Below are positions 30,553 through 33,913 of a stretch of 64,000 nt of DNA, one piece after another. The notes under the pieces are model-generated. The model made no database searches. It saw only the letters and a list, made by a program, of their open reading frames with translations, and was not told where the DNA came from. Each line of letters opens with the position of its first letter. Position 1 is the stretch's first letter. Both the position numbers and the translations under genes were made by a program. Origin of the DNA: Bradyrhizobiaceae bacterium (GTDB lineage: Bacteria > Bacteroidota > Ignavibacteria > Kapaibacteriales > Kapaibacteriaceae); assembly GCA_024103135.1 (NCBI GenBank), contig JAGFIZ010000106.1, positions 1 through 64,000 of the forward strand, written 5' to 3'.

Positions 30553-30576
30553 TACTCCGTCCCAAACAACCTGTCA
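30553..30576 (-). repeat. Displaced duplicate of the upp 3' terminus (left direct repeat)
   Basis: The segment contains CCCAAACAACCTGTCA and matches 31177-31200 exactly over 24 bp. Read on the reverse strand it encodes the last residues of uracil phosphoribosyltransferase (DRLFGTE and a stop), but it is detached from the gene by about 600 bp. Confidence 0.88.
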
Positions 30577-31170
30577 TCCCGGCGAAAGTGTCGTCATTCC
30601 GGCGCAAGCGGGGACCCAGTGCTCTTCCGCCGTCATCCCCGCGGAAGCGTCGTCATCCCCGCGAAAGCGGGGACCCAGAACGCTTGGTTGCGAACAACGT
30701 TTGATCGTACTGCTCCTTTACCCGTCACCCCCGCGAAAGCGGGGGCCTAGTATGCTCGGTTGCGAACAACGCATGAACGTTCTGCTTCTTCCCCTGGATC
30801 CCTGCTTACGCAGGGAAGACAGTGTTGGTCGTCATCCCCGCGAAAGTGTCGTCATCCCCGCGAACGCGGGGACCCAGCATGTTCAGTTGCGCACAACGCT
30901 TGAGTGTGCTGCTTATTCCCCTGGATCCCTGCTTACGCAGGGAAGACATTATTGGCCGTCATCCCCGCGAAAGCGTCGTCATCCCCGCGAAAGCGGGGAT
31001 CTAGCACTAAAACCTCCGTCATCCCCGCGAAAGCGGGGGCCTAGCACTCCTCTTTCTGGATCCCTGCTTACGCAGGGAAGACAGTATTGGTCGTCATCCC
31101 CGCGGAAGCGGGGACCCAGTACATTTTCGTCATCCCGGCGAACGCCGGGACCTACTTTCGCGGGGGTGAC
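30573..31170. repeat. Family A palindromes: GTCATCCCCGCG-AAAG-CGGGGA type (dRS3-like)
   Basis: Units lie at about 30573-30619, 30632-30678, 30724-30750, 30831-30877, 30958-31004, 31018-31044, 31093-31119 and 31129-31155, with an inverted partial unit at 31156-31170. Single units are 27 bp (ATCCCCGCGAAAGCGGGGAT core). Four are 47-bp composites with an extra half-unit (GTCATCCCCGCGAAAGTGTC) in front. The core matches the ATYCCC-N8-GGGRAT plan of Neisseria dRS3 elements. Confidence 0.85.
30794..31082. repeat. Family B palindromes: CTGGATCCCTGC-TTAC-GCAGGG type
   Basis: Three identical 27-bp copies lie at 30794-30820, 30921-30947 and 31056-31082, each read as CTGGATCCCTGCTTACGCAG followed by GGAAGAC. 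They alternate with family A units, and two are separated from a following family A composite by a shared spacer (AGTGTTGG / ATTATTGG type). Confidence 0.85.
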
Positions 31171-31175
31171 GACCT

Positions 31176-31880: not shown

Positions 31881-32744
31881 TCAGAACGGGAAGTAGTACA
31901 AGATTGTTAACCGTGGGATGGAAAACATGGTGTTAACGTCGGCCTTGTCTTCCGACAACATCGTCGGGTTGTCCTTGTTTGCCCATTGACTATCATCAAC
32001 CTCGTTGAGATAGCGAGTTACAATCCTGTCCATATCCCTACCAAGCAATAGGTTAAAGCGAACGTTGAACATTGGGTAGAACAATCCGATTGGAGTTGGA
32101 ATGTTCATCCCTAGTCCGACACCAAAGTTTATCCCGAACTTGCTTCGAACTATCGTTCCATCGTCGATCGTAGCGAATGTGGCACCAAGCTGTGGCAGGA
32201 AGTTGATTTTCTTGTAGGGGTTCAGGTTGTAGTGCACAACACCTTCTAGTACGGTTGTGGTGATTGGATCAAGACCATAGTCCTTCGCTGGTCCAGTGTT
32301 TTCCGAGTAAAGGAATGTTGCCTCGATAAGAAACTCAGGATTGATACCGTAGGTCAGGGTGGCGCCAGCGGAAAGCAAACCATCAAACGACGAGCTGCGC
32401 TTTGGACCTTCGTCAGTCTTGTAGGTCGTCCACCTGTTAGGGTTATCACCCGATCCAGCCAGCCGCGGATCATACTTCTGCACAAACTGCTGGAACTCGA
32501 TGTTTGTTTGCGAGCCGATCGAAATGCCAAAGCCAAGGGTGCGTGGTTTGATCCACTTTTCGTAAGCGACACTGTCGGCATAATAGTTGTCGAGTGCAAT
32601 CTCCCAATCCCTATCATCTGGGTAGTCTTCGTCGGTAGGGGGCTTGGGTTGCGCAAGTGCCGCAGTAGAAGCAACTAGTAGCATGGCTAGTAGGCCAAAA
32701 AACTTTCTGGTTGTTTGCGTTGTTTGGTCAATGATGTTCTGCAT
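31881..32744 (-). CDS. Nested outer-membrane barrel protein from an internal start
   Basis: An internal ATG at 32744 lies six bases after an AAGGA Shine-Dalgarno-like sequence (32751-32755). Translation from it gives a 287-residue protein with a textbook signal peptide: a short N-region with Arg-Lys (MQNIIDQTTQTTRK), a hydrophobic core (FFGLLAMLLVASTAALA) and likely cleavage before Gln. The mature part is a barrel-type protein with repeated strands (FGISIGSQTNIEF, INFGVGLGMNIPT) and a C-terminal aromatic residue. The core of the signal peptide is the same codons as the last helix of the TatD domain. Confidence 0.7.
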   Translation of the reverse strand: MQNIIDQTTQTTRKFFGLLAMLLVASTAALAQPKPPTDEDYPDDRDWEIALDNYYADSVAYEKWIKPRTLGFGISIGSQTNIEFQQFVQKYDPRLAGSGDNPNRWTTYKTDEGPKRSSSFDGLLSAGATLTYGINPEFLIEATFLYSENTGPAKDYGLDPITTTVLEGVVHYNLNPYKKINFLPQLGATFATIDDGTIVRSKFGINFGVGLGMNIPTPIGLFYPMFNVRFNLLLGRDMDRIVTRYLNEVDDSQWANKDNPTMLSEDKADVNTMFSIPRLTILYYFPF

Positions 32745-33446
32745 GGTGCTTCCTTTGATCTCGGCAATTTTCTGAGCTACAAGTGCAACGTAGGCGGGTT
32801 CATTACGCTTGCCTCGGTGCGGCTCAGGCGTGATATAGGGCGAGTCGGTCTCGATCATGTAACGATTGTCGGGAACGTTCTCTACCACCTGCTGCAAAGT
32901 CGATTTTTTGAAGGTGATATTGCCAGTGAACGAAACGTGGAACTGTGCATCCAGTGCTCGTCGTAGCACGTCCACCGAGCTTGAAAAGCAATGAAGCACT
33001 CCTCGGAGTGTTCCGTCCTGCTCTTCTTCAATGATAGTCAACACATCGTCATCGGCCTCACGGTTGTGGACGATGACGGGTAAATTCTTGCGCTTTGCAA
33101 TACGTAACTGTTCGCGGAAACAATGCTGTTGCACGGACTTCTCGGCAAAGTCGTAGTAGTAGTCCAGTCCTATCTCTCCAATGGCCACAACCTTCACTGC
33201 CGTCGCTCCCTGCTCTACGTGTTCGAGATCATGGTCCGTCACTTCCTGCACGTGATGCGGGTGAATGCCAATGCCTCGATAGAGCATGGGATGACTGTTT
33301 GTAACGGTGATTAGATGATCTCGTCGAGCTGGTTCGATGTCTGGAATGATGATGGCTTGGAGACCACCGTCAATGGCACGCTGCAACATCGCATCCCTAT
33401 CGGCATCAAATGGTTTGGTGTCGATATGAGCATGAGAGTCAATCAT
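31881..33446 (-). CDS. TatD-family metal hydrolase running in frame into an outer-membrane barrel
   Basis: One uninterrupted 521-codon frame encodes two usual proteins. Residues 1 to about 253 are a complete TatD hydrolase (DNase/3'-5' exonuclease family): MIDSHAHID, IGEIGLDYYY, LHCFSSS and ETDSPYITPEPHRG give the metal-ligand set, ending at the family's usual RKFFGL. There is no stop there. The next residues (LAMLLVASTAALAQ) complete a signal-peptide core, followed by a barrel-like domain ending YYFPF, an outer-membrane C-terminus. Either this is a real fusion, or the downstream gene is also made separately from an internal start. It overlaps bcp by 4 bp. Confidence 0.83.
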   Translation of the reverse strand: MIDSHAHIDTKPFDADRDAMLQRAIDGGLQAIIIPDIEPARRDHLITVTNSHPMLYRGIGIHPHHVQEVTDHDLEHVEQGATAVKVVAIGEIGLDYYYDFAEKSVQQHCFREQLRIAKRKNLPVIVHNREADDDVLTIIEEEQDGTLRGVLHCFSSSVDVLRRALDAQFHVSFTGNITFKKSTLQQVVENVPDNRYMIETDSPYITPEPHRGKRNEPAYVALVAQKIAEIKGSTMQNIIDQTTQTTRKFFGLLAMLLVASTAALAQPKPPTDEDYPDDRDWEIALDNYYADSVAYEKWIKPRTLGFGISIGSQTNIEFQQFVQKYDPRLAGSGDNPNRWTTYKTDEGPKRSSSFDGLLSAGATLTYGINPEFLIEATFLYSENTGPAKDYGLDPITTTVLEGVVHYNLNPYKKINFLPQLGATFATIDDGTIVRSKFGINFGVGLGMNIPTPIGLFYPMFNVRFNLLLGRDMDRIVTRYLNEVDDSQWANKDNPTMLSEDKADVNTMFSIPRLTILYYFPF

Positions 33447-33913
33447 CGGCTGAGCACGTCCATTGCTTCACGGATTTGCTTGAGCTGGTGGGCGTGACGG
33501 ACGTTGGACCAGGCTTTGCGAATCCGACCTTGTGGGTCGATGAGGTAGCTGGTACGCACGATGCCCATGTATTCACGACCGTAGAGTTTCTTGAGTTGCC
33601 ATACATCGTACTTCTTGATGATGGCCATCTTGGGGTCGGCAACAAGCGTGTAGTTCAACTGATACTTGTCGACAAATCGGTGGTGACTTTCTACGGTATC
33701 GGGACTTACGCCTATTACGTGAATGCCCATGGACTGAAGTTCCGGCATCGAGTCACGAAACGAGCATGCTTGTGCAGTACATGTAGGTGTATCGTCTTCC
33801 GGGTAGAAATACAGCAACACCCAACGTCCTCGTAAATCCTTCAACGCAAAACGGTTGGAGTTACTGGCAGGAGCCGCGAATAGCGGTGCGACGGTGTTTT
33901 CTTCGAGAGCCAT
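33443..33913 (-). CDS. bcp: Thioredoxin-dependent peroxiredoxin, BCP/PrxQ type
   Basis: This 156-residue peroxiredoxin reduces hydroperoxides with thioredoxin as donor. The peroxidatic Cys45 and the resolving Cys50 are in DDTPTCTAQACSFRD, the five-residue spacing typical of atypical two-Cys BCP enzymes. Family members usually have TPGC; here it is TPTC. The block SYLIDPQGRIRKAW is also typical. It is co-transcribed with the TatD gene (4-bp overlap). Confidence 0.92.
   Translation of the reverse strand: MALEENTVAPLFAAPASNSNRFALKDLRGRWVLLYFYPEDDTPTCTAQACSFRDSMPELQSMGIHVIGVSPDTVESHHRFVDKYQLNYTLVADPKMAIIKKYDVWQLKKLYGREYMGIVRTSYLIDPQGRIRKAWSNVRHAHQLKQIREAMDVLSR

Follow-up and report, generated by a model that had tools for sequence, protein, structure and literature searches.

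A single open reading frame in the window, by which we mean the whole 64,000-nucleotide stretch of DNA analysed here, most likely makes two proteins; we put the probability at about 75% that an in-frame nested gene lies on top of a polyprotein processed by signal peptidase. In the mechanism that we infer from the sequence, initiation at position 33446 would give a TatD nuclease with a C-terminus that runs on into a signal peptide and an outer-membrane beta-barrel. A second start, consisting of AAAGGA and the ATG at 32744 within the codons of the last TatD helix, would give only the barrel, led by an ordinary signal peptide at its N-terminus. Cleavage of the long form by signal peptidase I would leave a cytoplasmic TatD with a membrane tail at its C-terminus, formed by the spent signal peptide. 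Because the signal peptidase I site (ALA|Q) is common to the two routes, the same mature barrel is expected from each. The internal start would allow the barrel to be produced independently of TatD. Initiation at the internal start, cleavage of the long form and the destination of TatD are the inferred steps of this scheme.

One reading frame for a TatD nuclease and a predicted barrel

The frame runs from 33446 to 31881 on the minus strand, as do all features of the gene given below, and comprises 521 codons without a stop (31881..33446). Frame reading, profile matches and order-wide conservation support its division into a TatD nuclease, an internal signal peptide and a predicted beta-barrel, as the first-pass annotation had described it. 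The N-terminal half (residues 1-252; 32691..33446) is by its sequence a complete TatD nuclease, with a predicted nuclease role. Residues 2-251 cover the whole Pfam model TatD_DNase (PF01026; E 4.9e-78, 262 bits against a cut-off of 27), the TatD half reaches 257 bits with TIGR00010 (TatD/YcfH; curated cut-off 206), and the metal and catalytic residues H5, H7, E91, H127, H152 and D201 (HxH, Glu, His, His, Asp) are invariant in 21 diverse fusions.

Upstream lies a peroxiredoxin gene (33443-33913) whose stop codon overlaps the TatD start in an ATGA (33443..33446), so that the TatD start is probably translationally coupled to it. This gene and upp, which lies downstream, are in many cases retained next to the fusion; the peroxiredoxin gene is found there in 41 of 50 loci of family f2 and in 6/6 of family f5. 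Between upp and a gene ending near 30607, positions 30572-31174 of the window hold a degenerate repeat cluster of the type GTCATCCCCGCGAAAGCGGGGA with a 127-base tandem unit. The same genome also encodes a second, more distant TatD-family protein in a stand-alone frame of 267 codons (L034; G000:C28:5011-5574), so that TatD activity in the cytosol may be independent of the fusion.

Past the motif RKFFGL, at which the TatD half ends, the frame continues into a hydrophobic core, the site ALA|Q and a barrel-like sequence of about 255 residues. In the nested product, the signal peptide is composed of an n-region ending in TTRK and the core FFGLLAMLLVASTAALA, which reaches as far as A265|Q266, where signal peptidase I is predicted to cut (32652..32699). 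The stretch 32691..32744 is used doubly, as the last TatD helix and as the n-region and start of the h-region of the signal peptide. The predicted mature barrel (31884..32651) ends in Phe, and F or W is the C-terminal residue in 80 of the 111 complete frames of this kind. OMP_b-brl (PF13505) matches the barrel half with E 0.002 and 18.7 bits, under its gathering score of 28.7, and it matches the barrels of 12 of 32 relatives at E<=0.01. An AlphaFold2 model with a mean pLDDT of 64, for which three sequences were used, shows 8-9 long strands in the barrel part and represents residues 235-265 as one continuous helix, with low confidence in that region; a barrel-only model from one sequence reached a pLDDT of 34. 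In Foldseek searches with the two halves of the pLDDT 64 model, the first retrieved TatD crystal structures and the second the OmpA, Ail, NspA and OprG barrels. With small outer-membrane barrels such as these and the OmpA transmembrane domain (PF13505), the fused barrel shares a signal peptide and a mostly aromatic C-terminus, and the 8-9 strands predicted for it may be a further common trait. A PDB sequence search with the barrel profile gave no significant match, so that a significant sequence relation to solved barrels is absent, and the Pfam match stays under its cut-off.

When relatives were searched with the barrel half, open frames of about 450-670 codons were found nearly throughout the order. 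A whole-fusion profile matched 120 of 123 order genomes, more than 100 of them along its full length without a stop and single-contig assemblies included; relatives thus carry the same fusion, not a stop after FFGL, the two outcomes that the first-pass annotation had set against each other. The genomes without a fusion mostly have a contig end at the locus or no TatD of this type. For the analysis of the junction, we used 115 fused loci from 10 families and 50 genera, which come from related genomes, so that the counts are not independent. In all 115, a hydrophobic core directly follows the TatD helix, mostly succeeded by an AxA- or SxS-type site and Q; signal peptides and signal peptidase I-type sites were judged here by inspection and pattern.

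In only one order genome (G240, family f7; loci L115 and L116) are the two halves encoded by separate genes, which lie on different contigs. Its TatD stops after HFFDVK, and its barrel has an ATG of its own, a purine-rich stretch ahead of it and an ordinary signal peptide. This natural split shows that each half can exist as a protein of its own, and that a signal peptide is the counterpart of the internal segment. Fully separate genes in relatives, which the first-pass annotation had held to speak against a fusion, are confined to this genome.

Outside the order, most fused TatDs in the rest of the class are TatD-radical SAM enzymes (TIGR04038), and the others stand alone. Family f13, of the same class, has a TatD-signal peptide-barrel frame of the same kind. 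In family f19, TatD and a signal peptide are followed by a charged stretch, probably a coiled-coil, and another barrel-like region; the loci concerned (L226, L227, L228 and L232) may represent a fusion of this kind that arose independently or was rearranged. A search of a phylum sample with the barrel profile for free-standing barrel relatives gave only weak matches outside the order and f13 (G322, G364).

The internal start and synonymous codon choice

The nested frame of the window encodes 287 residues, signal peptide and barrel, and shares its stop with TatD (31881..32744). Its ATG (32742..32744) lies at codon column -15 relative to the Phe at the helix end, and six bases before it stands the Shine-Dalgarno-like motif AAAGGA (32751..32756), with a predicted anti-SD pairing of -4.9 kcal/mol; all pairing energies in this work were computed for the canonical anti-SD sequence, which is assumed. 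The ATG, the AAGGA (32755-32751) and the 287-residue frame named in the first-pass annotation are therefore present in the window, but the position is not a fixed one, since the start column differs by lineage. In the 115-locus set the internal ATG is found at -9 in 63 loci and at -17 in 33. An ATG in the exact column of the window occurs in only 4 of the loci. Because the motif of the window is moderate and its column is found in few genomes, the argument for an internal start rests on the family and not on the window alone.

In 96 of 103 loci, an in-frame ATG precedes the end of the helix by no more than 22 codons. Among about 46 control TatDs of the class without a barrel, Met occurs once at -9 and about twice at -17. 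Each start class has its own purine motif at start-site spacing, namely GAGG before -9, GCGGAG before -17 and AAAGGA before -15, and in locus L067 a GTG at -15 is preceded by AGGAG. The predicted anti-SD pairing ahead of the internal ATG averages -5.35 kcal/mol, against -2.57 after permutation of same-amino-acid codons within each frame. For 731 other in-frame ATGs the two values do not differ (-2.42 and -2.56 kcal/mol), and the RNA around the internal start is less structured than its codon-permuted versions.

The strongest result for the internal start is a swap control, which compares the same codons in loci with different starts. GAG at codon -13 is used in 42 of 45 loci with an ATG at -9 (9.7 expected) and in 6 of 18 without it (8.3 expected); elsewhere in these genes, GAG encodes the Glu of 24 of 118 Glu-Val pairs. 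With an ATG at -17, GCG stands at -22 in 17/26 loci and GAG at -21 in 23/31, compared with 0/47 and 5/52 where the sole ATG is at -9. Averaging over genera leaves the direction unchanged (z 9.1, 3.8 and 3.0). The Shine-Dalgarno motif thus tracks the start through synonymous codon choice, which argues that the nested start is under selection in f1 (the family of the window), f2 and f10 and partly in f8 and f9. The first-pass annotation had proposed that one stretch of DNA encodes both the last TatD helix and the start of a secreted barrel with its signal peptide, and this evidence from 115 genomes supports the proposal.

We also considered that the internal ATG is simply the usual Met of the TatD family, as an unconserved codon had first suggested; this was overturned by the codon reading, the swap control and the control TatDs.

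In f2 the mean pairing energy of the internal motif is -6.5 kcal/mol, versus -1.1 at the TatD start itself, and in f1 the values are -6.4 and -4.7. A motif that is stronger internally than at the TatD start fits a barrel output exceeding that of TatD.

Lineages without an internal site and the long chain

A motif of -4 kcal/mol or lower before an ATG or GTG is present in 21/21 loci of f1, 46/50 of f2, 1/1 of f10, 2/3 of f8 and 7/13 of f9. The corresponding counts are 3/8 in f3, 1/6 in f5, 1/9 in f7, 0/3 in f4 and 0/1 in f6, so that five of the ten families (f3-f7) are mostly without the motif. The separate initiation of the barrel considered in the first-pass annotation is supported by synonymous codons in f1, f2, f10 and partly f8 and f9, but several families have the fusion and lack a detectable internal ribosome-binding site. 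In four f3 loci (L097, L099, L087 and L089), an internal ATG at -10 is directly preceded by a GTG (GTGATG), without a Shine-Dalgarno motif. In locus L094 of f5, no ATG, GTG or TTG is placed such that a signal peptide would remain. Lineages with no usable internal start could, near-cognate starts aside, hardly obtain the barrel from anything but the long chain, and signal-peptidase cleavage of the polyprotein is the simplest route to the barrel where the internal site is missing. We propose that this route would supply the barrel in f3-f7. Since families exist that have the fusion and no detectable internal ribosome-binding site, processing of the full-length chain is probably also real.

These lineages raise the question of whether all barrel comes from the full-length chain, with Sec recognising the internal signal peptide behind TatD, signal peptidase I separating the two parts and the internal ATG being incidental. 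The retention of the fusion in families without the motif, the f5 locus without a start codon and the same architecture in f13 and, with another barrel-like part, in f19 are all consistent with this explanation. We nevertheless judge it unlikely, because synonymous codons track the internal ATG in f1, f2, f8, f9 and f10, for which a pure polyprotein has no need.

Less probable still is that the purine motif acts as a translational pause that aids Sec targeting of the nascent chain. Its place directly before the signal-peptide codons would suit such a role, but the motif holds start-site spacing to the ATG and is missing from these codons in loci that have their ATG at another place, and ATG enrichment and low structure are traits of a start site.

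It appears very improbable that the full-length protein functions without being cleaved, for example as a TatD nuclease anchored to the envelope or displayed there. The frame is never broken in 115 genomes, as such a protein would lead one to expect; a stop in the shared stretch would, however, also kill the nested barrel, so the unbroken frame is expected anyway and is no proof that the fusion protein is needed. Moreover, the signal-peptidase-like site is conserved and G240 keeps the halves apart. Finally, a sequencing, assembly or pseudogene artefact that removed a stop, such as the missed stop or frameshift considered in the first-pass annotation, is ruled out together with chance, as the same open frame is conserved in more than 100 independently assembled genomes, some of them single-contig, and nothing was found in its favour.

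For the two-protein reading, with a nested start in addition to the processed long chain, the chances seem about even for the following history. Nuclease and barrel would have been locked into one frame in the ancestor of the order or earlier, since the signal peptide of the barrel used the last TatD helix. This state would have been held across ten families, with signal peptidase as the sole separator in some lineages, and internal ribosome-binding sites would have arisen or moved more than once (-9, -15 and -17). A weakly resolved TatD tree of 69 rows gives nine changes of the internal site by parsimony and places f19 inside f2, perhaps wrongly.

Relation to known systems

Internal starts within a frame are known from riboproteogenomics of Salmonella, where in-frame nested genes or N-terminal proteoforms include those of SsaQ and ClpB (PMC11005335). 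As in the TatD-barrel gene, a second start in the same frame and with the same stop gives a shorter product, and some of the Salmonella pairs are predicted to differ in localisation. Those products are versions of one protein, whereas the short form here would be an unrelated protein with its signal peptide in the enzyme helix of the long form, and the arrangement is order-wide.

The bacterial FbcH cytochrome b/c1 precursor is a polyprotein cut at an internal signal peptide by signal peptidase, and the 115 junctions likewise place a signal peptide and a site of the signal peptidase I type between two domains. In FbcH and in core-E1 of hepatitis C virus, as proposed here, the C-terminus of the first protein serves as the signal peptide of the second; in contrast to both, the TatD-barrel gene has a soluble TatD nuclease first, an outer-membrane barrel second and an internal ribosome-binding site in most lineages. 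The core-E1 polyprotein, too, is cut at an internal signal peptide by signal peptidase (PMC5402940). The TatD-radical SAM fusions (TIGR04038, tatD_link_rSAM) resemble the present case in that TatD has a C-terminal partner and the bacterial class is the same, but their partner is a cytoplasmic enzyme domain and their junction is without a signal peptide. In the open-access literature that we searched, no TatD-barrel fusion is described, nor a case joining a nested start with a signal peptide at a polyprotein junction.

Gene callers will name these frames simply as one TatD hydrolase and will thereby overlook a predicted outer-membrane protein that is almost universal in the group. The locus offers a natural case of two unrelated proteins of different compartments that would share codons in the same frame, in which the start has moved and the ribosome-binding site with it. 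It makes testable how nested starts arise and shift, and whether Sec can use a signal peptide behind a folded domain of 250 residues.
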